From Aestuariivirga litoralis (GTDB lineage: Bacteria > Pseudomonadota > Alphaproteobacteria > Rhizobiales > Aestuariivirgaceae): a stretch of DNA of 64,000 bases. A program made the position numbers and the translations under genes. The notes below the pieces were generated by a model. The model ran no database searches and was not told where the DNA came from. It saw only the letters and a list, made by a program, of their open reading frames with translations. Shown here piece after piece: positions 7,080 to 61,200 of the stretch (the first letter of the stretch is position 1; each line of letters starts with the position of its first letter). Location: assembly GCF_003234965.1 (NCBI RefSeq), contig NZ_QKVK01000008.1, positions 62,001-126,000 on the forward strand, in the 5' to 3' direction.

Positions 7080-7397
7080 GGAGTTCTACCTTCTGGTTCC
7101 CGATTCGGCGGGTTTAGCGCCGCGGGGTGGCTTGCACAACCGCCATTCGCGGCAATTTCTGCCGTTGCGCTGCATGCTTGCCGGGTTGACGGCGGGCGGT
7201 TTCGGGGGGAATTGGGGCGGAATTCCGGTTGCGGCCGGGGCGGACCACGGCACGACGTTTTGCCGCGCCTGCCCAAAGTTGCGGCGGACGGTCGAATGTG
7301 GTTCACAATCGATGTTTGGAGTGGGGGCTCCAAGGGACAGCTATGGCCCCCGCAACCTTGCGCGAAAGCCGCAAGGCGTTGATGAGAGAGGGTGACG
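7080..7397. promoter_or_regulatory. Divergent promoter and leader region between ialB and ctaC
   Basis: 318 bp without a gene between divergently transcribed ialB and the cytochrome oxidase operon. Just before ctaC there is a stem-loop (CCTTGCG 7356-7362 pairing with CGCAAGG 7370-7376). A second possible pairing is GGGGGC near 7323 with GCCCCC near 7346. These would fold in the 5' leader of the oxidase mRNA. I could not fix a convincing -35/-10 pair. Confidence 0.45.
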
Positions 7398-45801: not shown

Positions 45802-45876
45802 TGGGGCGTCGCCAAGCGGTAAGGCAGCGGATTTTGATTCCGCCATTCGGAGGTTCGATCCCTCCCGCCCCAGCCA
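45802..45876 (+). tRNA. tRNA-Gln (anticodon TTG), attachment site of the island
   Basis: An intact 75-nt tRNA. The acceptor is TGGGGCG with CGCCCCA, then discriminator G and an encoded CCA. The anticodon arm GCGGA-TTTTGAT-TCCGC reads Gln (TTG), and the T arm is GGAGGTTCGATCCCTCC. Its last bases, CAGCCA (45871-45876), recur at 46148, 46425, 50215 and 52757, so the 3' end is the inferred integration site. The tRNA itself remains complete. Confidence 0.95.
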
Positions 45877-46147
45877 ATATTATTTTCCTAGTCTGTGCTT
45901 TTTTGTGTTTTAACCGATGCGTGCGGAATGTCTCCGACATGTCCGGGGCTTGCGCGAGGAGCAGCGGTGACGCCGTATCCAGAGACCGCTTTAGAGGGGC
46001 TCGGAGGCGGTGATGTGTGCGGAAAGTCTCTGAGAGCCTGAAATCCGGTTATGACGCGAGCCGGACGACCATCGTCAGGTGACCTGTGTAGGATTAAATG
46101 ACAGTAAAGGCGATGCTAACAATCGCTCTTTCGATCCACATCAAAGG
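45871..46147. repeat. tRNA-Gln junction repeat, unit 1 (277 bp)
   Basis: The unit runs from CAGCCA at the tRNA end to the next CAGCCA. It contains a T-rich stretch after the junction, GCGTGCGGAATGTCTCCG (45919-45936), an inverted CAGAGAC (45980-45986), GTGTGCGGAAAGTCTCTG (46015-46032), CCGGTTATG, and ends AATCGC-N4-TTCGATCCACATCAAAGG. No coding potential is seen. It is about 93% identical to unit 2 by hand comparison (about 18 differences). Confidence 0.9.
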
Positions 46148-46424
46148 CAGCCAATATTATTTTCCTAGTCTGTGCTTTTTTATGTTTTTGCCGATGCATG
46201 CGGAATGTCTCCGACATGTCCGGGGCTTGCGCGATGAGCAGCGGTGATGCCGTATCCAGAGACCGCTTTAGAGGGGCTCGGAGGCGGTGATGTGTGCGGA
46301 AAGTCTCTGAGAGCCTGAAATCCGGTTATGACGCGAGCCGGACGACCATCGTCAGCTGATCTATATAGGAGTAAATATCAGAAAAGGTGACGCTAACAAT
46401 CGCACTTTCGATCCACTTCAAAGG
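46148..46424. repeat. tRNA-Gln junction repeat, unit 2 (277 bp)
   Basis: Exact tandem neighbour of unit 1, with the same 277-bp period and order of motifs. Differences cluster in the last 80 bases before TTCGATCCACTTCAAAGG. Like unit 1 it has no gene, so it looks like an element reduced to its two ends. Confidence 0.9.
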
Positions 46425-46604
46425 CAGCCATTAATTCCTACTAAAACTTATCTTCCTGAGCCGTAGAAAATGTCCCCGACATGTCGGGGGCTTGCGCTGA
46501 CAGAACCGTCCATGTCGTATCCAGAGACCGCTGAATTGGGGTGTGGCGGCGGTGATACCTGTGAAAAGTCTCTGTGTGCCGGAAATCCGGTTATGGCGCC
46601 ACGC
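46425..46604. repeat. tRNA-Gln junction repeat, diverged copy 3 (left end of HNH module)
   Basis: It starts with CAGCCA, then diverges but keeps the order of motifs: a perfect 16-bp palindrome centred on CCGACATGTCGG (46474-46489), CGTATCCAGAGACCGCT, a GGCGGTGAT block, GAAAAGTCTCTGTGTGCC and AAATCCGGTTATGGCG. It lacks a nearby right end; the next CAGCCA is 3.8 kb on, after cargo genes. Confidence 0.8.
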
Positions 46605-47043
46605 GAGCGCCGTTGACCCTGTTAAATGTCTTGGAACCCAGCGGTTGAACATCTGGTTCGGAACCGGCGCCCAATCAACAGGAGCGACCTCTAGCACTCA
46701 GAACTTCCTACGGGTGACTGTTGCAACCCCGATAGCTCGGTATACCAGGAGAGTAGCAGCCCCGGAGATGTGAGAGCAGCTTTCAAGGGCGTCAAAATGA
46801 GTTGTGTTTGACCGCGAGTGCACTACCTCGCAGGCATCACAATATGTCCAGGACTCTGCCAGATGGATCTATCGCCCTCACTCTCGAGCTGGGATACATT
46901 GACTTCGCACTGCGCATGCCGTTTGCAATGTTGTGGGGATCGTTCATGACCAGCTGAACAGTTGTCCAGTTGCCGTTCGCGTTTTGATATTGAATGCTGA
47001 TCTCAGACAAGGTGCGTGTGCTCCGTTCTCCAGAAGAATTCGA
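46605..47043. other. Non-coding stretch at the start of the HNH module
   Basis: About 440 bp between junction copy 3 and the DUF3841 stop. Short open frames exist but none has a convincing start, ribosome site or protein-like composition. I see no tRNA, terminator or repeat here. Confidence 0.5.
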
Positions 47044-47613
47044 TCAGATTGGACGAACAGCGACCACCTCGTCACTTCGAATTTCACTGATGCAAGCCTG
47101 CAGGACCATTCTCTTTCGGAGGCGCCAAAATGGCTGCTCCCCTGCCTCTGGAGCAAACCGGAAGATGCGGGCCCATGTTGATCGGCACTCCTCAGTCCAT
47201 GCCGCGTTGTCCGTGCGCTCGAGTTGTTCTAATCGGCAATTCTCTCCCTCACTGATCGTCACGGGGCCTCCATTGAGGCAATTGTGCCACTGATCGTAAT
47301 CCGAGATCAGCAGTCGCTTTCGCGGAACAATGGCCGTGATGAGAAACTGCCCTCGATGTCGACGACGCTCCTTCCCAGTCAGCGAAGGCCTCTTGATCCA
47401 GGCCCATACAGGATATGCTCCACCTGAGAGTCCTGGTTGAGCGTGCATCTGTTCAACCATCCAGTCGTAGGCGTTCCACTTTCTTGGATCTGCGCCAGAG
47501 GTTCCTAGCAATTCCGAGTGCTCCTTCAGAATTTCCCTAATGCAGCTGAGAACGCCATTCCTTTGAAGTGCATCTAGTGCGGCGGCAGTTTGAAAGGTGT
47601 AGATTCGCAGCAT
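47044..47613 (-). CDS. DUF3841 family protein
   Basis: A 189-residue protein matching the DUF3841 pattern: an N-terminal strand MLRIYTFQTAAALDALQRNG, then AYDWMVEQM, YPVWAWIKRPSL, and the signature VPRKRLLISDYDQWHNCLN. The biochemical function is unknown. I start at ATG 47613; the frame continues upstream to 48165, but that part reads like the shadow of a plus-strand gene. No good ribosome site is seen. The C-terminal EIRSDEVVAVRPI ends the family region normally. Confidence 0.75.
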   Translation of the reverse strand: MLRIYTFQTAAALDALQRNGVLSCIREILKEHSELLGTSGADPRKWNAYDWMVEQMHAQPGLSGGAYPVWAWIKRPSLTGKERRRHRGQFLITAIVPRKRLLISDYDQWHNCLNGGPVTISEGENCRLEQLERTDNAAWTEECRSTWARIFRFAPEAGEQPFWRLRKRMVLQACISEIRSDEVVAVRPI

Positions 47614-47809
47614 GATGTCGGGATGTGCGTCGGCTATCCGGCGACACGCGCTGCTGGGCGTGAGCTTTGTCACGGCAGGAATCGCCTCCGGAACAAGGAC
47701 TTGTTCAAAGACTGATTGGCCCGCCGTGCGGCTCTGTCTGGTATGGCGCTCATGCTGATCATGCACTAGTATTGATCGCCTAGTGGGGCCGATCAACAGC
47801 AGGTTATTG

Positions 47810-48262
47810 ATGGTAGACCAATCGTCACTTCGAGCGGAAAGAGACCTGGTGCTCGCCCTTCCAACCGCCGCAGAGGTGACGGAACTTCGTGCCAAAGTGA
47901 AGCGTGCCAAGGCACCCAAGCTCATGGTTGGAGTAGAATGGAGCAACTCGATTGTCGGGCGCTTTTCAACAACGTCTGGAGACGACGGGACAATAGTCGA
48001 ATGGCAGATGGTCGGAGGCCTGAAGCATTCTCGGCCATTTGCCGCATTGAGTGAAGACCCTGAGCTGGAAACTGAACGCCTCGAGCTCGGCTGGATGATT
48101 GCAAACATGGCTCGTCTCGAGGGTGCACAAATGCTTCGGACGATACCGGGTCCAAGGGAGGCCATGGCAGAGGCCAGCCGATTTTACCGAGAGGAGGAGC
48201 GCTGGAGATGTTGGGCACTTTGGGGCCCCAATCCCCCTCCCAAGAGGGTGCGAACAAAGTGA
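47810..48262 (+). CDS. Hypothetical protein
   Basis: A 150-residue protein of no recognised family. It has an Ala/Lys/Leu-rich N-terminal helix (TAAEVTELRAKVKRAKAPK), a central beta-like part (LMVGVEWSNSIVGRFSTT...TIVEWQMVGG), and a charged C-terminal helix (REAMAEASRFYREEERWR). ATG 47810 has AGCAGG about 6 bp upstream; a GTG at 47783 is the alternative. It is divergent from the DUF3841 gene, with about 200 bp between starts. Confidence 0.55.
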   Translation: MVDQSSLRAERDLVLALPTAAEVTELRAKVKRAKAPKLMVGVEWSNSIVGRFSTTSGDDGTIVEWQMVGGLKHSRPFAALSEDPELETERLELGWMIANMARLEGAQMLRTIPGPREAMAEASRFYREEERWRCWALWGPNPPPKRVRTK

Positions 48263-48332
48263 AATTTGTTCCGAAAATGCGAGCGCTAGCAACTCAGGAT
48301 CAAGTGAGTGGTGACGTATTGTAAGTCACGGA

Positions 48333-48629
48333 TCACTTCGTCTGCTCGGCACGCGCTTCGTCGATTGTTCTCTCTAGATCGTCTGAGGACCGAGCTTCTG
48401 CTCGATCGTAGATTTCCTTTGTCATCCTGGCGAACTCCCTCTCATCTTCGAGGGCCTCGTTAAGTGTGGCACGGGGGCGTGGTCCGCCGCTTTCTTGGCC
48501 GGTTGCTGCCTCCGCTTTGGAGACAGAACCTATCTCTGAAGCGTTGCTTGATCTTGCGGACAGACGTTGGGCAACATAGTCCATAAAGCTAAAGGCTCCT
48601 TTGGCTTCTGCATCGACTTCGCTGGACAC
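48333..48629 (-). CDS. Small hypothetical acidic protein
   Basis: A 98-residue, Glu/Ala/Arg-rich, probably helical protein (ALEDEREFARMTKEIYDRAEARSS region). No family is recognised. The start is a GTG 3 bp after the stop of the preceding small gene (48633), so the two are likely one transcript. An internal ATG at residue 16 (FMDYVAQ) is an alternative start. Confidence 0.5.
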   Translation of the reverse strand: MSSEVDAEAKGAFSFMDYVAQRLSARSSNASEIGSVSKAEAATGQESGGPRPRATLNEALEDEREFARMTKEIYDRAEARSSDDLERTIDEARAEQTK

Positions 48630-48632
48630 GAA

Positions 48633-48890
48633 TTAGTTGTACCCGAGTAGCGACAACTGCTCTTGGGCCTCGGCAATAAGCTTAGCGGAGTCTGCCTCAT
48701 TGGCTTCGGAAGCCTGAATGTAACCAAGAATCTGATCGTCTATCTTGAGTTTGCAATAGGCTACTGCATCATGGAGCCATCGAAAGCTTGCGTTCAGGTG
48801 GAAATCGTCATCCTCACCATGCATGTGGAAGCAGTCGTAAGAGTAGACTCGATATGGCAGATCAGGAGTCGAAGCCTCTTCTTGTGACAT
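48633..48890 (-). CDS. Small hypothetical protein
   Basis: An 85-residue protein with a YRVYSYDCFHMHGEDDDFHL N-terminal part (His/Asp-rich) and a helical C-terminal half (DSAKLIAEAQEQLSLLGYN). I chose ATG 48890 because GGAG lies about 8-12 bp upstream; a start at 48944 adds 18 residues. The family is not recognised. It precedes the 48333-48629 gene with 3 bp between. An upstream element (48927-48975) resembles one before the HNH gene. Confidence 0.55.
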   Translation of the reverse strand: MSQEEASTPDLPYRVYSYDCFHMHGEDDDFHLNASFRWLHDAVAYCKLKIDDQILGYIQASEANEADSAKLIAEAQEQLSLLGYN

Positions 48891-48926
48891 TCGGTATCTC
48901 CACTCCCTAGAGCAGCGCCTCTTCAA

Positions 48927-48975
48927 GAAGCTTCCTATGGACAAAAGCGATCAGTCAACCAGGAACATTCTTTGA
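48927..48975 (-). promoter_or_regulatory. Shared upstream element, copy 1
   Basis: Reading minus-strand, TTGACTGATCGC then CCATAGGAAGCTTC lies 37-85 bases before the ATG at 48890. A related block precedes the HNH gene (50084-50134). The TTGAC...ATAGG arrangement is promoter-like but the spacing (13-14 bp) is short for sigma70. Confidence 0.4.
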
Positions 48976-49059
48976 ATGAGCGGCCTTTGATGGCCATGTG
49001 ATCAAGATATCGTCGACGAAACGATCTCAACAATCGTGATATCGATCAGGCCCCAGGAC

Positions 49060-50049
49060 CTATTGCTGCCTCTCCCGCCAGATCTTCCAGCGGCTCTCAA
49101 GAGCTTGATTTGATGGCTTCCTAATTCCAACCAGCAATGTCCTGCCGTGAATATCTTGATACCCGGACCGTTGGATACCTTTATCAAGGTGAATGGTGAG
49201 GTCGCCGGGATCGATTGCAATCAGGTTGAGATCAAACAAGGTGTGGATGTCTGCCCTGAGCAACAGGCCATTTCCCGGGTGATTGTCACCATCGCCACGA
49301 TAAGGCCAGATGTGCGCGGCCTCCAGCAAGTCCGTGATGTCACAACCTGTGATCTGGCAGCGGGCCCCATAGCGGCGAATGAGTCCCTTTCGAAATCTCT
49401 GCTGACCACGGCGAGCGCGTACCTCTCTTAGCACCTTGTTCCGTTGATCAGCCGCAGACTGAACATAAGCTGTCTCTTCAGTCTCATCGGAGCTCTCGTC
49501 TGGCCCAATGACACCACTCATGATGGCGGAGGACAGCTCGTCCAAGGCGCGGTTGGACAGTGGGACAAGTAGCTTCTCGAGCTGAACCGGATCCAGTTCT
49601 TCTATCGATATCTGGTCACTTGGACGAAGAGCTATGCCCTTCAACTGGCTCTTCGAAATACCGCTCGGCAGATCAACGTATGTGCCGCCGAAATCCGCAG
49701 TGTAGTGTTCCACGGGTTCTTCGGTGATCGCAGGCTCACCGAACTCGTGTCCCGCAGAACATCGCCATCGAGGCGTAACAGTACGGCGTTCCTTGATATT
49801 CGTTTTGCCACATTGGGGACATCTCTGGATGGCCTTCAGGCCGCTTGACTTCTGGATGCCGACAACTCTTGCCACGCCAATGGCCGCTTCGCTGTTTCGT
49901 ATAACAACCAAATCCCCCTGGGCTATCTGAAGGTGATTTACTACGTTGCTATCGTAGCGGTAGAGCCGTCGAGGCTCATCGTCATAGCCGCGATTTCCGC
50001 CATATTGGCGGTCGGCCCCTAAGGTAATGATGCTCCAGGCTCGCCCCAT
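49060..50049 (-). CDS. HNH endonuclease with N-terminal PUA/EVE-like and zinc modules
   Basis: A 329-residue nuclease. Residues about 30-70 (VVNHLQIAQGDLVVIRN...VGI) look like a small PUA/EVE-type beta-barrel, a fold used for modified-base reading. A zinc module follows (Cys77, Cys80, Cys97, His101). The C-terminal HNH domain has Cys231/Cys236, the AAHIWPY His246, Asn260 in HPGNGLLL and His269 in ADIHTLFD. Such architecture occurs in modification-dependent restriction enzymes. Its role here is inferred; no methylase is adjacent. Confidence 0.8.
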   Translation of the reverse strand: MGRAWSIITLGADRQYGGNRGYDDEPRRLYRYDSNVVNHLQIAQGDLVVIRNSEAAIGVARVVGIQKSSGLKAIQRCPQCGKTNIKERRTVTPRWRCSAGHEFGEPAITEEPVEHYTADFGGTYVDLPSGISKSQLKGIALRPSDQISIEELDPVQLEKLLVPLSNRALDELSSAIMSGVIGPDESSDETEETAYVQSAADQRNKVLREVRARRGQQRFRKGLIRRYGARCQITGCDITDLLEAAHIWPYRGDGDNHPGNGLLLRADIHTLFDLNLIAIDPGDLTIHLDKGIQRSGYQDIHGRTLLVGIRKPSNQALESRWKIWRERQQ

Positions 50050-50083
50050 TTCAGCCTACCTAGCTATAACTCACTCCAGCTAT

Positions 50084-50134
50084 GAAGCTTCCTATAGATC
50101 CCCGCGATCGGTCAACCGGTGAGCCCTCCTTGAA
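50084..50134 (-). promoter_or_regulatory. Shared upstream element, copy 2
   Basis: Reading minus-strand, TTGACCGATCGC then CTATAGGAAGCTTC lies 35-85 bases before the HNH start. It matches the block at 48927-48975, both upstream of minus-strand genes in the same module, so a common promoter or operator is likely. Confidence 0.4.
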
Positions 50135-50197
50135 CGACTGACGTCTGGTGACCGAGTTATCGGACTTGGGGCCTAGCAGATCCCCACAATCGCAAAT

Positions 50198-50400
50198 TCG
50201 ATCAACATCAAAGTCAGCCAATATTTTTTTCCTAGGATGTGCTTTTTTATGTTGTTGCCGATGCGTGCGGAATGTCTCCGACATGTCCGGGGCTTGCGCG
50301 AGGAGCAGCGCTGACGCCGTATCCAGAGACCGCTTGAGAGGGGCTCGGAGGCGGTGATGTGTGCGGAAAGTCTCTGTGTGCCTGAATTCCGGTTATGGCA
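50198..50400. repeat. tRNA-Gln junction repeat, copy 4
   Basis: The right end of the HNH module (TTCGATCAACATCAAAGT then CAGCCA 50215-50220) joins a well-preserved left end, AATATT-T-run-CCTAGGATGTGC, GCGTGCGGAATGTCTCCG, ATCCAGAGACCGC and GTGTGCGGAAAGTCTCTG, ending CCGGTTATGGCA near 50400. It closely matches units 1 and 2. It divides the HNH module from the dehydrogenase module. Confidence 0.88.
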
Positions 50401-50502
50401 TGAAGCCCGGGGCCATCCAAACTCGCGGCCGCAACACGCAATCTTGCCGGACGTGCGGGAGTCAAACGCGCGATGATGTTGTCTCGTGATGACTCAAAGA
50501 GT
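50401..50502. other. Short spacer between junction copy 4 and the dehydrogenase gene
   Basis: About 100 bp rich in GC, with no gene and no hairpin followed by T-run. It is the 3' side of the dehydrogenase gene. Confidence 0.4.
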
Positions 50503-52122
50503 CTACTGTCGGGCTGTCGAGGCTATGGTGTCAGCAAGCCTGAGAGCCAGGGCTGCGATCGTCAGCGTTGGATTGGCCGTGGCCGAGGTCGGGAACACCG
50601 CCGAACCGGACACGAACAGATTGGGGTGGTCGTGGCTCCGCAACTCGCCATCGATCACTGAACTTCCGGCGTTGGTCCCCATGCGCAGCGTTCCGATGAT
50701 GTGACCCGCCCCCTGCACCAGCGGGCTATGCTGCTTTTCGCTCACACCCAGCCGCTCGAATATCTCGTCGTGCGCCACCCGGGCAGCCGCCAGCCCCGCT
50801 TGGACATAAGTGTCGATGCTGTAGGAAAGGCGAGGGAGCGGCACGCCATAGACGTCGCGCTTCTCCGGGTCGAGTGTCACCCTGTTGCCTGTATCGGGAA
50901 GTTGCTCGACCAGAGAGGCAAGGCGAACGTGCCGCGAGGTCTGCTGGCGCAGTGCGGTGTCGAGATCCTTGCCACGCAGGCCCTGATTGGCAAGTTCCGC
51001 CGCGGTCGTGATCGGCGCACCGGTCGGCCAAGACCATCCGTCATTGCCGATCTCGATGCGGAAGGCGCCCCGGGTGCGGCGGAAGTCGCCATCTCTCAGG
51101 TTCTCGATTCCAGAGGTGGAAAGCGGTCCTCGATAGGGATAGACCGGCTTCTCGGCCAGCGCCCATGAAAGCTGCGTCGGGTGGTCCATCAGGTTGCGGC
51201 CGACCTGGTCCGAACTGTTTGCCACGCCCTTCGGCAAGCGTTCAGTTGCCGAATTGAGAAGCAGCCGGGGGCTTTCGATCGCATGTGCGGCCAGCACGAA
51301 ATAGCGAGCCTGTAGCGAACCGGCACTGCCGTTCCAGCGGATGAACCGGGCGGCCGTGATCCTGTTGTCGTCGCTGGCATCCAGAGACACGACATTGGTC
51401 TTGCTGAGAAGAACGGCGCCGGCCTTCACGGCCCGGGCGACATGCACGGTGGCATCGTATTTTGCCTGCACTGGACAGACGGGGATGCAGCTTGCATTGC
51501 CGCAGCAGGCGGGTCGGTCGGACTGATCCTTCGAGTTCCGTGCCTGAGGCGTGGATCTCACATCGTAAGCAGATCCCTGAAGGGCTGCTGCGAAGGCCTT
51601 GTCCAGGTAGGTCTGCGGAATGGCCGGCATGGGGTAGCCGGCTGATCGGGGAGAGCCGAGATCCGACGTCCCGTCTCCTGATACGCCGAGTTCATCCTCT
51701 GCCCTGTTGTAATAGGGAGAGAGCGCTGCATAGTTGATCGGCCAGTCCTCGCCCTGCCCGAATCGCGTCCTCAGCTCAAAATCCGCAGGAACGAATCTCA
51801 ATGCGGTGCCGAGCCAATGCCAAGTGGTTCCGCCGACTGTCTTGATGTAGGTGCTCGCGAATTTGTCTGGTCCCGTTTGCTGGTACCAGAAATCGAGATT
51901 GTCCGAGACCGGGTGCATGGCCTGCGGCACGGGAGGGTAGGGACACTCCGGCACCTTGATGGCAGCCGACCAATAGCGATCGACCGCTGCCGACCGGTCG
52001 ACCTCCTCTCCCGCCTCCAATATCGTGACCTTGAAACCGCGCTCGGCCAAGTGTGCAGCGACCAGTGCGCCGGCGACACCTGAGCCGATGATGGCGACGT
52101 CGGTTATCATGCTGTCGCTCAT
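50503..52122 (-). CDS. FAD-dependent GMC sugar/alcohol dehydrogenase, large subunit with iron-sulfur motif
   Basis: A 539-residue GMC oxidoreductase. The FAD loop is VAIIGSGVAGALVA (about 8-22). A cysteine cluster of CC-x4-C-x3-C (in PACCGNASCIPVCP) matches the [3Fe-4S] site of bacterial FAD glucose/gluconate dehydrogenase large subunits. C-terminal active-site His/Asn are in GAGHIIGTLRMG and SATANPTLTI. It oxidises a sugar or polyol at the periplasmic face. ATG 52122 with GAGGAG 10 bp upstream. Its small subunit is encoded just upstream; the cytochrome subunit is missing. Confidence 0.9.
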   Translation of the reverse strand: MSDSMITDVAIIGSGVAGALVAAHLAERGFKVTILEAGEEVDRSAAVDRYWSAAIKVPECPYPPVPQAMHPVSDNLDFWYQQTGPDKFASTYIKTVGGTTWHWLGTALRFVPADFELRTRFGQGEDWPINYAALSPYYNRAEDELGVSGDGTSDLGSPRSAGYPMPAIPQTYLDKAFAAALQGSAYDVRSTPQARNSKDQSDRPACCGNASCIPVCPVQAKYDATVHVARAVKAGAVLLSKTNVVSLDASDDNRITAARFIRWNGSAGSLQARYFVLAAHAIESPRLLLNSATERLPKGVANSSDQVGRNLMDHPTQLSWALAEKPVYPYRGPLSTSGIENLRDGDFRRTRGAFRIEIGNDGWSWPTGAPITTAAELANQGLRGKDLDTALRQQTSRHVRLASLVEQLPDTGNRVTLDPEKRDVYGVPLPRLSYSIDTYVQAGLAAARVAHDEIFERLGVSEKQHSPLVQGAGHIIGTLRMGTNAGSSVIDGELRSHDHPNLFVSGSAVFPTSATANPTLTIAALALRLADTIASTARQ

Positions 52123-52126
52123 GGAG

Positions 52127-52579
52127 TCAGGGCTCCTCACCCGCAGGCAGCTCACTCCAGTATCCCATCTCTCCCCCACAGTTTCCCCATGGCTTGGTGT
52201 AGGACATGGCATTCCAGACTAGCGCTTCGTTGAACCCCGTCACCTCGCGGGCACCAGGCACGGGGGACAGTCCACTGTACCAAGCTGCGACGACCGCATC
52301 GGCAATCTTCGACTGGCTGCGCTCAGGAGCCGGGTCCGAGATCAGTGTCGCCAAGTTCTCGGCTTGTCCTGCTGAAACAAACGCATCGAGGATGTTCCTG
52401 CACATGTCCATGTCGAGCGCTGACTGCCCTGTCAGCTTTCGGGAAACATCGGAAAACTGATCTAGGCTGGAGGGTGTTGCAGCGTGTCCGGGAGCAGTGA
52501 ACTGCATGCCAACGACGAGTATGGAAGCTGCCGATGTGCCGCTTCTCAGCAAGTCCCGACGCGAAAGATTTCCGATCAT
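52127..52579 (-). CDS. Sugar dehydrogenase small subunit (TAT-exported)
   Basis: A 150-residue protein with a twin-arginine signal (LSRRDLLRSGTSAASILVVG, about residues 5-24) and the body of the FAD-dehydrogenase small (gamma) subunit, ending NAMSYTKPWGNCGGEMGYW. The small subunit carries the folded large subunit through the Tat system. ATG 52579 is preferred because GCAGGA lies 6 bp before it; ATG 52585 is possible. It is coupled to the large subunit, 4 bp before its ATG. Confidence 0.88.
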   Translation of the reverse strand: MIGNLSRRDLLRSGTSAASILVVGMQFTAPGHAATPSSLDQFSDVSRKLTGQSALDMDMCRNILDAFVSAGQAENLATLISDPAPERSQSKIADAVVAAWYSGLSPVPGAREVTGFNEALVWNAMSYTKPWGNCGGEMGYWSELPAGEEP

Positions 52580-52738
52580 GGTCATCCTGCAACCTACTGA
52601 CTTCGAGGCTAGCACTCGAAACTCTGTCGTGCCAACGGTGTCTCGCAGTCCTTTGGGCTTGGCCGCTCAAGAATTGCAAGCAGCATCCGCGACAATTTCA
52701 AAGAAAGGGCGATACCAAGCTCTCCCGACGATCGTGAA

Positions 52739-52935
52739 TTCGATCCACATCAAAGTCAGCCAATCCACCCTTGTCGAACCATGAGAATGACAGCTGTCGG
52801 AGAACTCTCCGACATATCCGAGGCTTGGACCGCACAACGGGCGGCAGGCATGCCGGAGAGACGGATTTGGCGCTCTGGCTGGTGGATTTCACTCGGAAAG
52901 TCTCTGCTGCTCCGAATTCCGGTTATGGCGCGCCG
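52739..52935. repeat. tRNA-Gln junction repeat, copy 5
   Basis: The right end TTCGATCCACATCAAAGT plus CAGCCA (52757-52762) closes the dehydrogenase module. The following left end is the most diverged. It has a perfect 9-bp inverted repeat TGTCGGAGA-AC-TCTCCGACA (52795-52814), GGAAAGTCTCTG and TTCCGGTTATGGCGCG. It adjoins the serine recombinase gene, whose stop is at 53011. Confidence 0.78.
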
Positions 52936-53010
52936 TGCCGTGTATCATAATAGTTGCGGAACGGCTTCCCACGGATCTGTCCCGGCAAAGACAGACTGTC
53001 AGTGTGGAGT

Positions 53011-54705
53011 TCAGGCCAGCAGGAGGGCGCGCTGCTCTTCCCAGGAGGCGGGTAGCGGGCAGGCCTTCTTGAGCCGTTCCGGGGTAAGGGACATCGGCTG
53101 CATGCCGTCGACGATGGTCTCAACGATGTCTGGTGCGAGGAAGGCGAGACTTATCTTGAGGCTGATGTAGGAAGCCGAGACGCCCTCGGCCCTAGCAAGG
53201 GCGGCGATGGTCGGGACCTCCCCGGATGAGAGCGCATCAAACCACCGACGGGCTCTCAGGATTTCGGCGACGAGGCGGGGGTGGGGATCGGAATATGGCT
53301 GGTCCCCGGTTTCGTCAACCACCAGTCTTACCTGCTTCCCACACCGGAGGAGGTGGCCGGTGATGTCGATCACGAGGGGCAGACTATCCAGCGGCGACTG
53401 TGCGTCCTCGGGGAGTCGGCCGGTGAGGAGGGCGACAAGCTGATCCCTGTTGACCCTGAGATGTATGTTTCTCTTATCCATGGTGATACGGGTAACGAGG
53501 TCGCCGATCATTCCGGTGTTCATGATCGGCTGCCTCTCGATATCGACCGCAATGCCCTGTGCTTTTTCAAGTGCGGGCGGAAGGTCTCCGGGACCGGGTA
53601 CGAGCGCAGCAACCCATTGCCTTTTTCTCAGGTGGCCTGCCAATGAACGGATGACGATCATCTCGAGGTCAGGAGCGGGAACCCGAAACCCGCTCGTCGC
53701 CTGCTGCCTCCCCTCCTTCAGCAGCGATTTCGAAGTGTAGTACCGGTACTTCTTCCTCCCCTTGCTGCAATGGGTTGGCTGCAGCCGCTCGCCTTGAGCA
53801 TCGAACACCAGCCCCTTGAGCAGGGCAGGGGAGGACAGCTTGCGGCGCGCCTTGTCCCCGGGCCCCTGCTGTTCTAGGACTCGCTGGACATCCGAAAACA
53901 GCTTCTCCTCCACGATTGGCTCGTGCTCCCCGGGAAAACACTCACCCTTGTGTTGGATCAGGCCCCGGTAAATCGGGTTCTTCAGGATCGTATACAGGGC
54001 GCCCCGGGAGAAGCTAACACCACCCACCACCGAGCCATCCTGGAGGACCTTACGTTTCGATCGCCTCCCGGAGCTGGCCAGTTCCCTTCGCAGGAGCTGC
54101 ACGGATCGAAGCTCCAGGTAGCGGTCGAAGAGGTGACGGACGGTCTCGGCCTCCTCCGGAACGACGACCAGCTTTCTCGCCTTCACCTCATAGCCATGCG
54201 GTGGATGCCCTCCCATCCAAATGCCCCGCCGCTTGGAGGCGGCGATCTTGTCCCGGATACGCTCGCTGGCAACTTCCCGCTCGAACTGGGCAAAGGAGAG
54301 CAACACGTTGAGCGTCAGTCGACCCATTGAGGTCGACGTATTGAACTGCTGGGTGACCGCCACGAAGGACACGTTGTGCCGGTCCAGGACGTCCGTGAGC
54401 TTGGCGAAGTCTGCCAGGGACCTGGTGAGCCGGTCGATCTTGTAGACCACGATGATGTCGATCTCGCCCCTGGCGATGTCCTGCATCAGGCCCTCGAGCG
54501 CTGGCCGCTGGAGGTTGCCGCCTGAGAAGCCGCCATCGTCGTAGGCTTTTGGGACCAAGGTCCAGCCCTCATGCTTCTGGCTGGCGATGTAGGCCGTACA
54601 GGCATCCCGTTGGGCCGCAAGGGAGTTGTAGGCCTGATCCAACCCTTCCTCTGAGGACTTGCGGGTATAGATTGCGCAGCGGCGGATTGTGGGACAATCA
54701 GCCAT
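53011..54705 (-). CDS. Large serine recombinase
   Basis: A 564-residue serine recombinase. The N-terminal resolvase domain has YTRKSSEEG (nucleophile Ser17), YDDGGFSGGNLQRPAL and YKIDRLTRSLADF. The recombinase domain (about 160-290) is followed by a partial zinc-ribbon/coiled region and a C-terminal helix-turn-helix-like part (IAALARAEGVSASYISLKISLAFL). ATG 54705 overlaps the DUF2924 gene by 8 bp. It probably mobilises this module, but could be a resident resolvase; target sites are unproven. Confidence 0.93.
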   Translation of the reverse strand: MADCPTIRRCAIYTRKSSEEGLDQAYNSLAAQRDACTAYIASQKHEGWTLVPKAYDDGGFSGGNLQRPALEGLMQDIARGEIDIIVVYKIDRLTRSLADFAKLTDVLDRHNVSFVAVTQQFNTSTSMGRLTLNVLLSFAQFEREVASERIRDKIAASKRRGIWMGGHPPHGYEVKARKLVVVPEEAETVRHLFDRYLELRSVQLLRRELASSGRRSKRKVLQDGSVVGGVSFSRGALYTILKNPIYRGLIQHKGECFPGEHEPIVEEKLFSDVQRVLEQQGPGDKARRKLSSPALLKGLVFDAQGERLQPTHCSKGRKKYRYYTSKSLLKEGRQQATSGFRVPAPDLEMIVIRSLAGHLRKRQWVAALVPGPGDLPPALEKAQGIAVDIERQPIMNTGMIGDLVTRITMDKRNIHLRVNRDQLVALLTGRLPEDAQSPLDSLPLVIDITGHLLRCGKQVRLVVDETGDQPYSDPHPRLVAEILRARRWFDALSSGEVPTIAALARAEGVSASYISLKISLAFLAPDIVETIVDGMQPMSLTPERLKKACPLPASWEEQRALLLA

Positions 54706-55147
54706 TGGAAGTAGTCCTCTTCCGGTCCCTGGTGCCGAAGAAGCGGGGTCCGGACCAGCGCACTCCTGTGATCTCACGGGCAATCTCGCTCAGGGACCTC
54801 CACACCTTACCCCCGTAGGCAAACCGTCCGTCCTCCAGAGCTAGAACTTCATGAGCCTTGCCCTGCCACTCGCGCAGCAGCATAACCCCCGGCTTCAGAG
54901 GCAAGGTCTCACCACTTAGTTGTAAGCTTCCCCTGCCGCCACTGCGCAGTGCCCTCAGCCGGATGGAGGTCCGGCGGCTGAAGCCGCCGAACTCCTGTTC
55001 CTGTCTCCTGTAGGCGATGGCGAGCCGGAGCAGTTCCTTGCTCATCGCAGGCGGAGCATCATCGTCAGAAAGACGCTTCCACTCGACCCGCAGGCTCTTC
55101 AGATCCATCCCGGCTAGTTCTGCCAAGAGCTCTTCCGTCCTACTCAC
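54698..55147 (-). CDS. DUF2924 protein
   Basis: A 149-residue DUF2924 protein, a regular companion of large serine recombinases in alphaproteobacteria. LKSLRVEWKRLSDDDAPPAMSKELLRLAIAYR and YGGKVWRSLSEIAREITG with VRWSGPRFFG are the family landmarks. It probably binds DNA or assists recombination. It starts with GTG overlapping the DUF3489 stop by 4 bp, and overlaps the recombinase ATG by 8 bp. Confidence 0.85.
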   Translation of the reverse strand: MSRTEELLAELAGMDLKSLRVEWKRLSDDDAPPAMSKELLRLAIAYRRQEQEFGGFSRRTSIRLRALRSGGRGSLQLSGETLPLKPGVMLLREWQGKAHEVLALEDGRFAYGGKVWRSLSEIAREITGVRWSGPRFFGTRDRKRTTSNG

Positions 55148-55449
55148 GAGTTGGCAGCTTCGGTGAGCCGATAGCGGCGGCCACCCTGGCCTTTGGATGA
55201 ATCTAGTGTGAGACCCAGCTTTTTCTTCAATGTCCCCGAGAGGTATCCGCGCACGCTATGAGCCTGCCAGCCGGTAGCCCCTGAGAGTTCCGAGATAGTC
55301 GCTCCCTGCGGACGAGCTAGAAAGGCCTGAATGGTCTCGGACTTGCTCATTGGTGCGGGCGACAGCTTCTTGGCGGGCTGCTTCGAACGAGTACCGGGCG
55401 CTGAATTCTTGGTCTGCCTGGAGGTTAAGCCGGATTTCTTGATGGTCAT
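55144..55449 (-). CDS. DUF3489 small DNA-binding-like protein
   Basis: A 101-residue protein with a basic N-terminal half (Lys/Ser/Thr-rich) and a C-terminal winged-helix-like DUF3489 domain: TIQAFLARPQGATISELSGA, then TGWQAHSVRGYLSGTLKKKLGL, KGQGGRRYRLT. It probably regulates or assists the recombinase. ATG 55449 has AGGAGAA 7 bp upstream. It is the first gene of the DUF3489-DUF2924-recombinase operon. Confidence 0.85.
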   Translation of the reverse strand: MTIKKSGLTSRQTKNSAPGTRSKQPAKKLSPAPMSKSETIQAFLARPQGATISELSGATGWQAHSVRGYLSGTLKKKLGLTLDSSKGQGGRRYRLTEAANS

Positions 55450-55615
55450 GGTGGTTCTCCTGTTCCGGAGGCTTAAGCAGCCTCCCACCACCGCAAGCCC
55501 GCTCAGGGCGGGCTGTCGACGCCGTCAGTCAATCAGCTAGGCGTCGTGGCACAACAAATGCTTCCTTTCGGTAGGAAGTCGAGTGGAAATCTGTAAGGAA
55601 GAGAAGCCGTAACAT

Positions 55616-55641
55616 CGGTTCGATTCCCTCTCGGTGCGCCA
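55616..55641 (+). other. tRNA 3'-end-like fragment, possible attachment remnant
   Basis: The sequence reads like a T arm and acceptor end: CGGTTCGATTCC then CTCTCGGTGCGCCA, close to tRNA-Arg/Lys 3' ends in alphaproteobacteria. No matching 5' acceptor strand is found upstream, so it is not a whole tRNA. Such fragments mark attachment sites of elements that insert in tRNA genes. Confidence 0.4.
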
Positions 55642-55717
55642 TTTAGCCCTTCGGCAAAGCTCTCTCGCCGAAATTCCAGCGTTGAAAATCCCTCAGTAAT
55701 TGCGGGCTTCTTTGCAA

Positions 55718-55792
55718 AAAGCTCCTGACTGCCGGAGTGGCCGTGAGGCCGAATTTCTTCTCTCCCTGCTATTCTCCAAAGCTCCTGACTGC
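55718..55792. repeat. Direct repeat pair of 15 bases, 60-bp period
   Basis: AAAGCTCCTGACTGC occurs at 55718-55732 and 55778-55792. The period is 60 bp. It lies in the non-coding gap of the recombinase module. Function unknown; candidates are recombinase or regulator binding sites. Confidence 0.6.
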
Positions 55793-55893
55793 TCGGAAAG
55801 AGCACGACGGCGGTAAGTAATTGAAAGACAGAAGTTTTCTTTTGGGCTCACCGCCGTACTTTGCATCTTCCATCCAGAGCGCGAGAGGCTCTC

Positions 55894-56178
55894 TCATCCA
55901 ACCTTCGCGTAGTCTCTGGCATTCGGGCCGCCTGACCAAACCACGCCTTTGAGGTAATCGTCTTTCGCCAAAAATAATGTCGGCTGCGCATTAACACCTG
56001 CCGACGCGAAAGTCGGCAATGTGTCGATAATGGCCCAGGCGACGAAACCGCGAAGCTGACATATCGTAACTATGGGCGTGGCAATCGTGTCGCCATCGCT
56101 CAGACTGCGGCTAGGCCAAGGTAATCCATGCGGCGTTCCAGAACCGGCAAAGTGTTCTGATCGCCAGATGGCAGCATG
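55894..56178 (-). pseudogene. In-frame 94-codon open stretch after the UvrD helicase stop
   Basis: Directly after the TAA of the helicase (56179-56181) the same frame stays open for 94 codons to TGA at 55894-55896. The peptide is protein-like (for example GFVAWAIIDTLPTFASAG and VVWSGGPNARDY). It has no ATG or GTG start at its beginning; the first usable start (TTG) would leave only 41 residues. It may be a decayed gene, a C-terminal extension lost by a stop mutation, or a chance open frame. I do not recognise the family. Confidence 0.35.
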
Positions 56179-58251
56179 TTAGTCGAGCTCCACAATCATG
56201 GCTGCTCGTTTGGCGCGAGTGAGAGAGACATACATCAATCTACGCTGATTGATGGTCTTGTCTGGAGGCCCAAGATAATCCACTGGGGTCACGATTGCCA
56301 CAGCATCGAACTCCAATCCCTTGGCACGGTGCATTGTCGCAAGGTGAATTACGTTCTGGGCATCGGAGTGGTTAGATTGTGCATCAATGGTGATGCAGCG
56401 AAGCCCAGAGCGCTGTAACTCTGCTGCCAAAGCGTCTCGGATCTTTTCGCTGGGAGCGATCGTGCAGAAAGAGGCCCTCTGTCCATCGGCAGTAAACTCT
56501 GCGTGGAATTTCTTAATTTGCTCGGCTGCTTCCCGGACATCGCCGGCCTTTGCCACTGACGGAGCTGGGCCGTGTGATAAGGACTTATAGCGCCGATTTT
56601 CGTCGTGACCATCGTCCAGATCATCAATCTCACAACCCTCAAGCAATGCTACAGCGTGGCGGCGGATTTCGTCTGTCGTTCTGTAGTTGAGATATAGCTT
56701 TCGTGCTCTTCCGCGGATGTCTATTCCGCATTTTCCCATCGAGGCCCGGTTGCGACTATATATTCGTTGATGGCCGTCACCGACGAAGAACAAATCATTA
56801 CTTCCAGCCGCGATCATTGCCCGGAGAAGCTTGAGTGCTTGGGGGCCAAAGTCCTGTGTTTCGTCTATCACGATTGCGCAGAGCGGCGGCCGCGAAATTG
56901 GATCCGATGTCAGCATTTCGGCGATTTCGCGGTAGGCGTCATCTACCTCCTTGAGGTGCCGAGAGGCGAGCTGCCCTCGGTACTCTTCGAACACTGGCCA
57001 AATAGCGTCGCGACTTGCCCGATTCAGTGTTCCGGATCTGCCGACCCGGCGAGCCATGCGGTATTCGTCCAGGCTGGTGATGCCTTGCGCGAGGATCACT
57101 TGCTCTAGCTCACGCTCATAGAAGTCATCTGGAAGATCCAATGTCGTATTTCGTGAGGCAAGGGCGGACTCCCACGCCTGCTTTGCTGCATCTTGCTGAC
57201 GGTTGTAGACGATACGATGCTCGATTTTTCGTGCCCGCATAAATCCGTGGACCCATGCATCAAGGTTTTTCACCTCGATACGCGCCATGACCTGCGAATC
57301 ACACAAACTCTTCAAATTGCTCTCGATGTCTGCAGCAAGATTTCGGGTGAACGTTGTGAATAGGACCCGCTGACCGTCTGCACAGCGATTCTCGGCGAGC
57401 CATTTTGCCCGATGCATGGCTAGAACGGTCTTTCCCGTTCCTGCACCCCCAAGAATACGCACCGGTCCACTGCGATCCCCCGAGGCAAACTTGATCTGGG
57501 TTGGATGAAGAAAGATCCGCCACTGCGCTAGAGGTGCATTGAGAATGGCAGCCATGGCCTCGTCAGTATTGACCACGACAAACCGCGACTTCGATTCTGG
57601 TGTTTCGAGTGCCTTGGCAAAATCGAGAACATCCACCTCGCGGTCGACACGTGTCTCGCGGGCACTGAGAATCTGGCTGACAGTGTCGCCAGCGGCTAGC
57701 AAGAACAAACTCTCATACGCCTCAACCGGTAGATCCTTTTGGATGTTGTCCAAGTCATCTTCTGACGAGATGGTCCTAACGACCCCGATCAATTCCTCAG
57801 GCAGTCCCAAGCTGATTAGTTCACGGTCTGTTACTGCAGAGAATAGAGGAGCCGAAGCGTTCCAACTGGCGTCAAGATCCGCTGAAGGTGGCTGCACTGC
57901 GTGCGTGCTTAACTCAATGTTTATTAGCTGCATTGCACCCGTTACAGGGTTGACCGTCAGCTTCCGGTTCTCTGCCCAGCGATATGCCGCATCATGATGA
58001 TCGACATATAGCAGAACATAAAGGTCGCCATTATCTGGCTTGAACACAATCCCACGCCAGTCCTGGTCGATCCTTACAGACTTAAGCGATCGGTCTCTGG
58101 CTCCCTTTATGCTTTCGTAGTTGATACCAGGATTCCTTGGGTCTGCCTGGAATTTGACAGCCCACTTAAGGACCTTGCCCTGGATAGATAGAGGCAGGTC
58201 ACCAAGCTGTAGAATGAATTCCTGCGAAAGAGCGACCTTGGGCTTCAACAT
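56179..58251 (-). CDS. UvrD-like helicase with RelE/ParE-like N-terminal domain
   Basis: A 690-residue SF1 helicase. Residues 1-95 look like a RelE/ParE toxin fold (SIQGKVLKWAVKFQADP, SLKSVRIDQDWRGIVF, then VLLYVDHHDAAYRWAEN). The helicase has Walker A GGAGTGKTVLAMHRAKW (about 267), TTFTRNLAADI, the DEXX box IVIDETQDFG (about 460), VGDGHQRIYS, LNYRTTDEIRR and C-terminal ATMHRAKGLEFDAVAIV with YVSLTRAKRAAMIV. Its ATG overlaps the giant helicase stop by 7 bp, so the two act in one operon. It is probably a defence helicase. Confidence 0.88.
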   Translation of the reverse strand: MLKPKVALSQEFILQLGDLPLSIQGKVLKWAVKFQADPRNPGINYESIKGARDRSLKSVRIDQDWRGIVFKPDNGDLYVLLYVDHHDAAYRWAENRKLTVNPVTGAMQLINIELSTHAVQPPSADLDASWNASAPLFSAVTDRELISLGLPEELIGVVRTISSEDDLDNIQKDLPVEAYESLFLLAAGDTVSQILSARETRVDREVDVLDFAKALETPESKSRFVVVNTDEAMAAILNAPLAQWRIFLHPTQIKFASGDRSGPVRILGGAGTGKTVLAMHRAKWLAENRCADGQRVLFTTFTRNLAADIESNLKSLCDSQVMARIEVKNLDAWVHGFMRARKIEHRIVYNRQQDAAKQAWESALASRNTTLDLPDDFYERELEQVILAQGITSLDEYRMARRVGRSGTLNRASRDAIWPVFEEYRGQLASRHLKEVDDAYREIAEMLTSDPISRPPLCAIVIDETQDFGPQALKLLRAMIAAGSNDLFFVGDGHQRIYSRNRASMGKCGIDIRGRARKLYLNYRTTDEIRRHAVALLEGCEIDDLDDGHDENRRYKSLSHGPAPSVAKAGDVREAAEQIKKFHAEFTADGQRASFCTIAPSEKIRDALAAELQRSGLRCITIDAQSNHSDAQNVIHLATMHRAKGLEFDAVAIVTPVDYLGPPDKTINQRRLMYVSLTRAKRAAMIVELD

Positions 58252-61200
58252 GTTGCATCCTTCTGGCCAGCGCCTGAAACGCCTAGGGCTTTTGCGAGTG
58301 CTAATTCAATGGGGGTACCGTCCACGGTCTGATTTTCGTCTTGCATCTGAACGACCATCCAACCCTCGTCGGACCAAATCTTGGCCATATCATCCTGGTC
58401 AGACCTCAGCAGTACCAGCTTCTTCTCCGGCCATGCCGCTTCGCACTCTGCGACGATCGTACCGTCCGGCCCCGCCAACTCCATGCCAACCTCCGGCGGT
58501 CGCACAGCGTGCTTCTCAAGTTTTAATAATGCCGGCTTGAGAAAGGGTGCACAGGATTGTACTGCATCGCGCCACAACCCGGGCGGAACCATCTCACTTT
58601 GCTGATGTGATGCAAGTTCGGCGGCACCTTCAAACAGGCCGTAGTCACCCTCAACGAGACCCCGCTTGGTGGCCATCAGCATCCCGGGGAGGAACTGGAA
58701 GATATTGCAGGCTTGAAGCCATTGGCGCCACCTGAGGTGAAGTCCCTGCTCGCCATCGCCTGAGGATTCATCAAGTATAACGAATCCAGGAACCGGAGTT
58801 GCAGCAGATGGACCGGAGAGTAACGTGTGCGCCCACCACCCAACTACCGTAACAGGTGCTTCTGCAACAGATAAGAATGCCGTGTGATGTTTGCCCGAAT
58901 GTTTGAGCCACTCGGGGATCAAGGCCTTCCATGCGTTCATCTGCGCTTTTGCTGCCTCTTGATCCTCCGGTGTCGTCGGGAGCAGCCGCGTGACGAGCGA
59001 TGCTGCATTGCGCCGAAGCGAGCCTTCAGCCACGACGTCATTCTCAGGCGAGGCGAGATGATGGAGGAGCTGCGCAACTGCATTTTGGCTCAGCGGGTAG
59101 ACCTCACTTGGCTTGAACCAGGTGGCAGCTTTTAGCGAATCATGACGATTAAGCGTTGTTGCGGTAGAAGGCAGGTCGGTCTCAAAGCCTCCACCGATCG
59201 AGGTTGTGATGTCTTCGTGAGTGATAGACCATACGACGTATCTGGAACTTGCTAGTAATGCGCTGCGCTTGCGGGCGTCTTCCTGCAGAGTTGACTTATG
59301 GTAAGTCCATCCGTCGCAAAAAACCGCGACGGGTTTTCGGGTCGAGCTCTCGCTCCACGGCCAGATAATGAAGTCGGGCTTGCTCGGCACCGTGATGCCA
59401 TCACTACTGGCGAGATTTCTTTGAGGCTCTACACGATAACGGTTAGGCCCCACTTGAAGAATAAAACCGGATTTTCCGAAAACGATGTCCTGCAGCAAAG
59501 TGATTGGTGGCAGCTTGCCAATCCCGCTGAGTTTGCGAAGACACTCAATAAAGCGCGCTTCCAAAACAGAGTCGAAGTTGGGATTGATGTAGATTTGCGA
59601 GATGGTCTTTACACGCACTTTTGCATGCAGAGCTCCAGTGAGCTCTCGCAAAACGTCTTGGGCAATGCTGCGCGAGACTTCATCGAGGCTGCGGCCAATG
59701 CGATACTGGTATAGGCAGCGATAACATCCGTCCTTTTCCGGATCCTTGTTACAACTGCATGCATCTAGTGCCGCCAGTGACTCCTTGAAAACGCGGTCGA
59801 GCGCATCCGCCTCATGGGCAAGCAACTCATTCAGATAGCCTGTGCCGCCAGGGACTGAATCATACAGCAACACGAACTGTCGGCGAGGGCCATTGTCCTG
59901 CCCCGGTTCATCCTGAAGGGTCATGCGCAGGTGGTCCACCTTTCCACCGAAGCAGCGCTTCAGCCCCAACTGGATGGCCGCCATAAAAGACTGAATGACC
60001 TTTTCGTCCACGCCGTACTTGGTGAAGGGCACGAGAATGCGCAACGCTTCTGAGGTGAATTCCCTGTACAGGTACAAGCATTCGATCAGGGCGTCAGGAT
60101 TGTCTCTGCTTCGGTGTGGGCAGTCTAGGCTATGCTGCTCTTCAGCATGATATGACGACTGCACCTTGCCGCAATCGCGGCAGAGCTTAAAGCCCGGGCG
60201 AGGAGCTTCACGGTCCGCCACCTTGAACGTGTCGCCAGGATTGGATATCTCGCCAAAGTTGATGTCGCGGAATGTTACTCGAGCAAGAAACTCGAAGCCA
60301 AATGGCGGCATACCATCTGGAAGCTGCCACGCCTCCCGCACTGTGGACGGCTCGAAATTCGCAAGCAGTTGCCTTGTATAGAAGGCAGGCTCACGTTCCT
60401 CGGCTGCATCATCGATCCGTACTTGAGAATCGTCGCTGTTCGCTATCGCTTGGCGAAAGCGTAGAAGGGTGCGCTTCTGGGATACGTTACCCCAGAGGGC
60501 ATCGCTACATCGAGGGCAGGTGCCGTACTCATCGACAGAGATGCTGAGGTTTTGTACGTGCTGGCAGGCCGGACAGAACCTCCATTCTTCTGTGCTGGTC
60601 AGAGACATGTTGATCTGGTCGATCTCCACTTTTCTCTGATTTGCGTAGAAGCGGTTTTCCGGTGCGAATTCAGACAAGGCGGAATTGGCCGGTCGCTCAT
60701 ACTTCAGCGTCTCAAGCGTCACGTATTTTCCCGGGCCCGTGTCATCGTCACCCTTTCGCCTCCACAGCACTGATTTGAGTTCGATACCGGCTTCGGGGAA
60801 TGCATAATTCGGAATGAGACCCGCATCTGTCAGTGTGTTGAGCAGGTCGCGGGTGTTTATCTCCTTGACCAGCTCAAGGATCTTATTCTTCTCGCTAATC
60901 AGCTCTGCGATGGTGTTCTGGGTGGCTTGGTCTTGCGGACCTTGCTCTGCCTTGATGCGTTGCCGATCAACCTCTTCTTTACGCTCACGCCAGACCTTTC
61001 GTTCCCTGACCAGGTCCTGCAGTGTTTTCATCAGGCGGATTTTCAATCCGTCATCCTCGCCTTGGCCTTCGATGAAGTCTCGAAGGCGGTCGATTACGAC
61101 CTTGTCCGCATCCGACCCAAGGAGGCTGACAAATCCGTCGAATAACCGAACCTGATTTGTGACTACGTGATCGAGAAAGACGTAAGGGAAGCGATCTATC

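Follow-up and report, generated by a model that had tools for sequence, protein, structure and literature searches.

The tRNA-Gln gene at one locus of Aestuariivirga litoralis is followed by two nearly identical, apparently gene-free stretches of DNA that join exactly end to end, raising the question as to whether these are mobile elements reduced to little more than their ends, or the products of a local duplication that never moved at all. The window analysed here is a 64,000-nucleotide stretch of contig NZ_QKVK01000008.1, and the gene, tRNA-Gln(TTG), occupies positions 45802–45876 of its forward strand (ARAGORN; Rfam RF00005). Its 3′ end, CAGCCA (45871–45876), forms the first of a series of junctions, the hexamer occurring again, in phase with the repeat, at 46148, 46425, 50215 and 52757. 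A first-pass annotation of this DNA had placed the first three copies 277 bp apart and had counted by hand about 18 differences between the two units that they delimit. The spacing agrees with the positions, and a recount gives exactly 18 differences in 277 positions (10 transitions and 8 transversions) between the first unit, E1 (45877–46153, including its closing CAGCCA), and the second, E2 (46154–46430), both on the forward strand. A repeat search of the window returns the same two 277-nt copies at a spacing of 277 and an identity of 94%, together with a third copy, restricted to the inner part of the repeat and diverged (131 nt, 78%), that lies 12 bp nearer; in the organism's own genome E2 is recovered as the second copy with E = 8.7e-118. 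A gapless 277-bp repeat at 94% identity is far beyond chance. The units were also said to have no coding potential, which is borne out in that no open reading frame of at least 100 aa in the window overlaps E1 or E2, the longest stop-to-stop stretch within them being 75 codons, on the minus strand of E1.

The junctions define a stack of elements at the tRNA-Gln 3′ end, in the order E1, E2, E3, E4 and E5, each spanning from just past one CAGCCA through the next; E1 starts directly past the CCA end of the tRNA and E2 directly past the right end of E1. E3 (46431–50220, 3.8 kb) and E4 (50221–52762, 2.5 kb) are recognised by their junctions and shared ends and carry cargo, and E5, recognised by its junction and left end, begins at 52763 and runs past the end of the window (52763–64000); all three are given on the forward strand. 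E1 and E2 are built of a left arm of about 181 bp, a spacer of about 55 bp and a right end of about 42 bp. The left arm of E1 (45877–46057, forward strand) is 96.7% identical in E2, and it recurs after three further CAGCCA copies, at 46431, 50221 and 52763: the arm of E4 matches it at 93% (50215–50397), that of E3 is diverged and 12 bp shorter, and the left end of E5 is a weak match, with 66% identity over 134 aligned columns. The right end of E1 (46112–46153, forward strand) is common to the right ends of E2, E3 and E4 and recurs just before 46431, 50221 and 52763. The earlier description of the units as a left end and a right end alone is therefore supported by their cargo-bearing neighbours, on which both ends recur; as elements reduced to their recognition sequences they are aptly described insofar as only ends remain, but the left arm exceeds a recognition core.

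A repeat that is non-coding, partly conserved, equipped with an inverted repeat and arranged in tandem copies downstream of a tRNA could also be a duplicated functional RNA, a tRNA-processing sequence or a terminator, and not be mobile. We find this scarcely credible, as the repeat has no Rfam family match (the sole matches in the E1/E2 region are two tRNAs upstream), the arm is also present at junctions inside the stack, kilobases away from the tRNA (50221 and 52763), and the arm is wholly absent from relatives in which the site is empty.

The Pfam-assigned genes of E3 and E4 and those of the recombinase module of E5 lie on the minus strand. E3 encodes a DUF3841 protein (47044–48165) and an HNH_2 protein (49060–50049), the latter also matching PADLOC HNH restriction models (E = 7.6e-15), and E4 encodes a GMC oxidoreductase (50503–52212) and an FAD-SLDH-type small subunit (52127–52615). 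E5 opens with a large serine recombinase of 590 aa (53011–54783; Resolvase and Recombinase domains, PF00239 and PF07508), a DUF2924 protein (54698–55147; PF11149) and a DUF3489 protein (55144–55491; PF11994). Just upstream of the DUF3489 gene, at 55617–55641, is a T-arm-to-CCA-like piece, GGTTCGATTCCCTCTCGGTGCGCCA (TTCGA-N15-CCA, ending GCGCCA), which may be the right end of a ~2.9-kb element nested in E5 or the displaced end of another tRNA. The cargo of E5 at 56179–63986 adjoins the recombinase module and includes two genes that, to judge from their similarities, are probably defence genes: one encodes a UvrD-type helicase with NERD+UvrD and GajB as its best PADLOC matches, the other a helicase of 1913 aa that matches the DruE models of Druantia (best E = 2.5e-69). 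E1 and E2 have no recombinase, DUF2924 or DUF3489 gene, whereas E5 has all three, and being without genes, E1 and E2 could belong to tRNA-associated serine-recombinase elements only as non-autonomous members. This is the reading that we favor: E1 and E2 are probably cargo-free, non-autonomous elements of such a family, in effect minimal attP arms, that were moved in trans.

Of 248 genomes, 63 have relatives of the E5 recombinase at E ≤ 1e-60. We examined 57 distinct full-length loci, leaving aside partial matches (the alignment of many of these stops near residue 390), and in 36 of the 57 the stop codon of the recombinase has the 3′ end of a tRNA facing it, 195–464 bp away. There is no tRNA at the expected place in the remaining 21 loci, four of which meet a contig edge within about 510 bp; others lie at internal junctions, and several show neither edge nor junction. 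Tandem arrangements recur: in genomes G098 and G216 a tRNA-Gln or tRNA-Arg gene is followed by two consecutive recombinase modules, and where one element gives way to the next in the G216 arrays, the right end mimics the T arm of a tRNA (GGTTCGAATCC...CAGCCA). At a tRNA-Ser gene in G441 (locus L181) the left arm is repeated (82%) about 3.3 kb past its first occurrence, giving a stacked pair of elements. A second set of fetched loci has DUF2924-like sequence beside nearly all of the recombinases and DUF3489-like sequence beside most. On a tree of 37 recombinases, built by a quick method, tRNA isotypes cluster (14 changes against a shuffled mean of 22.6, with none of 200 shuffles as low), and the recombinase of the window forms a group (support 87) with the G034 recombinase, which is located at tRNA-Gln. 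A search of plasmids with the recombinase protein gave 11 records, two of them covering at least 80%. These comparisons favour a serine recombinase, acting site-specifically, as the likely machinery.

The stack lies within an island whose size we put near 100 kb from relatives with an empty site: in G028 and G031 tRNA-Gln directly joins sequence that is found here at ~147240 (in coordinates that extend those of the window), about 101 kb from tRNA-Gln in this genome. In G001, sequence like that at 145608–146195 is within about 1.5 kb of tRNA-Gln, and the right limit of the island is therefore uncertain by 1–2 kb. Past 52763 the next recognisable junction is at 138490 (extended coordinates), where an E5-like left end is preceded by a right end of another type, common to G018. 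Right ends of this second type have repeated AATTCCCTG-like motifs ahead of the CCA core, in what looks like an array of accessory sites, and are seen in several genera (in L118, in L112, in L019 at 7076–7283, and here at 138330–138490 of the extended coordinates). At the far right of the island there is a second serine recombinase (G000:C25:191739-193448; L128), 50% identical to that of E5, at whose 3′ side no junction or repeat was found, and about 1.5 kb beyond it a tyrosine integrase (G000:C25:194935-195414). With tRNA 3′ ends being classic targets of tyrosine integrases, as documented for Islander, and with this one such enzyme in the island, it could be asked whether the stack is the work of the tyrosine integrase, with the serine recombinase simply carried along. 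We regard that as very improbable: the integrase, the only Phage_integrase match in the island, coincides with no recognised junction and lies about 80 kb away from the tRNA, whereas the serine recombinase adjoins the junction in the 36 loci just described. In addition, the shared core is about 6–8 bp, and the gene-free units of G316, described below, contain the 3′ end of a serine-recombinase gene.

The arm between the tRNA and the recombinase holds an inverted repeat, (C)AGAGAC-N36..40-GTCTCT(G), the first half of which lies 81–114 bp past the CCA. Scores of at least 10 of 14 are reached in 30 of 36 arms (dinucleotide shuffles: mean 2.43, maximum 7), and scores of at least 12 in 15 of the 36, against 0.03 in shuffles. 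E1 to E4 all attain the maximum of 14; in E1 and E2 the repeat begins at position 103 with a spacing of 39, motif scoring of the E1 arm placing the halves CAGAGAC at 45980–45986 and GTCTCTG at 46026–46032 of the forward strand. An independent pattern, TTCGA-N15-CCA-N86..112-GAGAC-N37..41-GTCTC, used with its reversal as a control, matches in 52 of 397 genomes of the order (reversed control 3), in 22 of 103 genomes of one family (control 0) and in 30 of 387 genomes of the class (control 0). In 40 regions fetched from the matches in the order, a tRNA was found at 38 of 43 sites, counts that are biased by the choice of tRNA-like regions, and a recombinase is detectable downstream in 22 of those 38. 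A second feature of the E1 arm is the block CTCCGACATGTCCGGGGCTTG (45932–45952, forward strand), which on visual inspection has similar counterparts in other family arms. The longer string GTCTCTG...TCCGGTTATG was dropped as a family signature; only two features held family-wide, the inverted repeat and the CCGACAT block, the latter as judged by eye. The same inverted repeat with a different left end (...GAAATTCCTTTTGG...) is present at a group of tRNA-Ser loci (L160, at G000:C12:629998-630156 in the organism's own genome, and L161, L162, L164 and L171), some with a partly matching recombinase clade nearby.

Sequences of the E1 type have a much narrower distribution, with matches in 5 of 150 genomes, its own included. 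In G011 an E1-type left end, without the second half of the inverted repeat, stands at the same tRNA-Gln with other cargo, the next gene encoding 317 aa and being read from its sequence as a homocysteine S-methyltransferase. In G018 the left end is at an internal element junction and is followed by sequence 77% identical to the E4 oxidoreductase gene. Matches in G037 and G029 were set aside as short (51 and 37 bp) and with no tRNA on their loci. The contig of G025 stops 38 bp past tRNA-Gln, within a similar left end, and there is no PF07508 match in G025. The pattern GACATGTCNNGGGCTTGCGC gave 12 loci in GTDB genomes, two of them genuine (L093 and L095, the G011 and G018 contigs) and the other 10 rejected as having neither a tRNA nor further similarity; the pattern GTCTCTGNNNNNCNGAANTCCGGTTATG, with up to two mismatches, was found in the organism's own genome only among 397. 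The left arm had no match in viral contigs, plasmids or phages. In the collections searched, with one genome per species and many of these fragmented, exact E1-type sequence is confined to one genus and none of the recombinase-bearing elements found has a left end of the E1 type. The first-pass annotation would have taken its reading as refuted if such units occurred only as this pair in one strain and never at a mobile junction elsewhere; G011 and G018, as well as the genome considered next, show a wider occurrence.

A second gene-free pair is found on contig 33 of G316, a genome from another family of the order, in which tRNA-Gln is followed by two 353-bp units that differ from each other at 26 positions, and then by an element with a left arm, recombinase, DUF2924 and DUF3489. 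The units match the left arm of this adjoining element over 244 bp at 86% identity, and the match extends beyond the recombinase stop codon, which is 183 bp past the CCA. They accordingly hold the last ~20 recombinase codons (WQSQR..GFAAAQAHSRD), with the stop codon altered in both units, and because these codons are kept the G316 units are internal-deletion derivatives of a recombinase-bearing element. By analogy, G316 is the strongest support for E1 and E2 having arisen as internal-deletion derivatives too. The two pairs differ in sequence, and both stand at tRNA-Gln, in different genera; no remnant of a recombinase gene was seen in translations of E1 and E2, and as the G316 contig stops short of the right end of its recombinase-bearing element, the likeness seen there is one of left arms. 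Among 91 distinct tRNA flanks in the fetched loci (a set that omits loci before L055 and has the window's own pair outside it), self-repeats occur in G316 only, and with a strict pattern applied to 861 distinct genomes same-strand sites less than 700 bp apart are likewise found in G316 only. The strict pattern misses E2 and E3, in which the distance from TTCGA to the CCA end is 24 nt and not 23, and the count of gene-free units is therefore a lower bound.

That cargo-free units are found in pairs only, and in two genomes only, lends itself to a different history, in which one such unit arose by deletion in place, was duplicated by unequal homologous exchange and has since decayed, without ever being mobile. 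It would account for E1 and E2 being adjacent, of equal length and 94% identical, and for the G316 pair being likewise adjacent and of one length. Against it, the left arm of E4 is equidistant from those of E1 and E2, with 15 differences from each, as is the case for separate family members. The differences between E1 and E2 also avoid the left arm (6 in 181 positions versus 12 in 96 elsewhere, p = 0.005), which is unexpected for a decaying duplicate and fits divergence while the arm was under constraint. This is nonetheless a weak argument, because the bias in G316 runs the opposite way, with 18 of its 26 differences concentrated in the first 90 bp (p = 1.3e-6). The first-pass annotation had offered an old duplication or two separate insertions as the origin of the pair, and on this choice the two genomes point in opposite directions. 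On balance we consider duplication without mobility unlikely, if well short of negligible.

If E1 and E2 are instead non-autonomous elements moved in trans, their arrangement could have come about as follows. A large serine recombinase of the DUF2924/DUF3489-linked family would be supplied in trans, and the attP of a circular unit (right end / CAGCCA / left arm) would join the tRNA-Gln 3′ end, near CAGCC. The tRNA sequence would be kept up to the CCA and the landing site beside the tRNA renewed by each insertion, such that elements would pile up head to tail from E1 to E5; we assume that newcomers enter beside the tRNA, the youngest being nearest to it. An accessory protein, DUF3489 or DUF2924 for example, may bind the inverted repeat. 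We infer this role, as we do the movement in trans and the direction in which the elements stacked, from the arrangement of the DNA. A dyad around the proposed recombination point can be made out by eye in G034, between the T arm GGTTCGAT and the left end ATCGAACC, and it has a counterpart in E5 (GTCGAACC, also by eye). The first bases past CAGCCA differ between E5 and E1–E4, and because E1–E4 are without the dyad we do not name E5 as their helper. A broader proposition, for and against which we see the case as evenly balanced, is that a widespread alphaproteobacterial family of large serine recombinases with two helper genes (DUF2924 and DUF3489) and an unusually long, conserved attP arm, marked by the CCGACAT block and by AGAGAC/GTCTCT halves about 45 bp apart, inserts elements at the 3′ ends of a wide range of tRNA genes and spawns stacks of gene-free attP arms of ~280–350 bp. 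Such units would stand to serine recombinases as MITEs stand to transposons, and would show by natural deletion what the recombination site requires.

MITEs are short gene-free derivatives of autonomous elements that have terminal inverted repeats and derive from transposons. The suggestion in the first-pass annotation that the units are MITE-like holds by analogy only; a repeat search finds no inverted pair at the ends of E1 and E2, so these are not strict MITEs, and both they and the G316 units differ from MITEs in having direct-repeat cores and a fixed tRNA target. The G316 units resemble MITEs as gene-free deletion derivatives with a remnant of the recombinase gene; for E1 and E2 neither a remnant nor a parent element was found. 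CIMEs carry cargo, unlike E1 and E2, which carry none; SCC elements use Ccr recombinases at a protein-gene target and have no tRNA arm, and mycobacterial phiRv2 has a serine integrase at a tRNA gene. E1 and E2 have two attachment ends and no recombinase gene, as CIMEs do, and CIMEs, formed by accretion, also occur in tandem with recombinase-bearing elements (PMC3146451). SCC resembles the stack in its serine recombinases, its gene 3′ end target and its composite tandem elements (PMC3146451).

From the portion of the account available, the nearest known system in behaviour is that of the Dehalococcoides ssrA islands, in which a serine recombinase adjoins attL, the tmRNA 3′ end is the target, and islands occur in tandem; 15 of them have no integration module and were read as possible cis-mobilizable elements (PMC3146451). 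With these and with SCC, E5 and the 36 of 57 loci share a serine recombinase beside attL at a gene 3′ end, in tandem. In the ssrA islands a CcrB-like recombinase is accompanied by a second, small one and by further genes, whereas the neighbours of the E5 recombinase are DUF2924 and DUF3489; the ssrA islands insert into the T loop and have a direct repeat of 20 bp, as against a core of about 6–8 bp at the CCA end in E1–E5, and gene-free units have no mention in the excerpted text of that account (PMC3146451). The tRNA islands of Islander share with the stack a tRNA 3′ end target and tandem arrays, but have a tyrosine integrase and a longer displaced tRNA fragment (PMC4383910). Phage WO is similar in being an integrated element of alphaproteobacteria with a large serine recombinase, but the targets described for it are a magnesium chelatase gene or intergenic sites and not tRNA 3′ ends (PMC9203015); a DUF2924/RAMA domain is among the domains near Wolbachia CIF loci (PMC11342252). 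The open-licence literature, in the extracts covered, holds no recognised description of a DUF2924/DUF3489 recombinase module at tRNA genes, or of gene-free units.

What emerges is a recombinase family that has a long, conserved arm and is seen beside tRNA 3′ ends in many of the families that make up one order. The gene-free units delimit the DNA that may suffice in cis, about 280 bp, and the site is thus directly testable. They also suggest that islands linked to tRNA genes enlarge as elements stack up, the cargo in this one being defence-like and metabolic.
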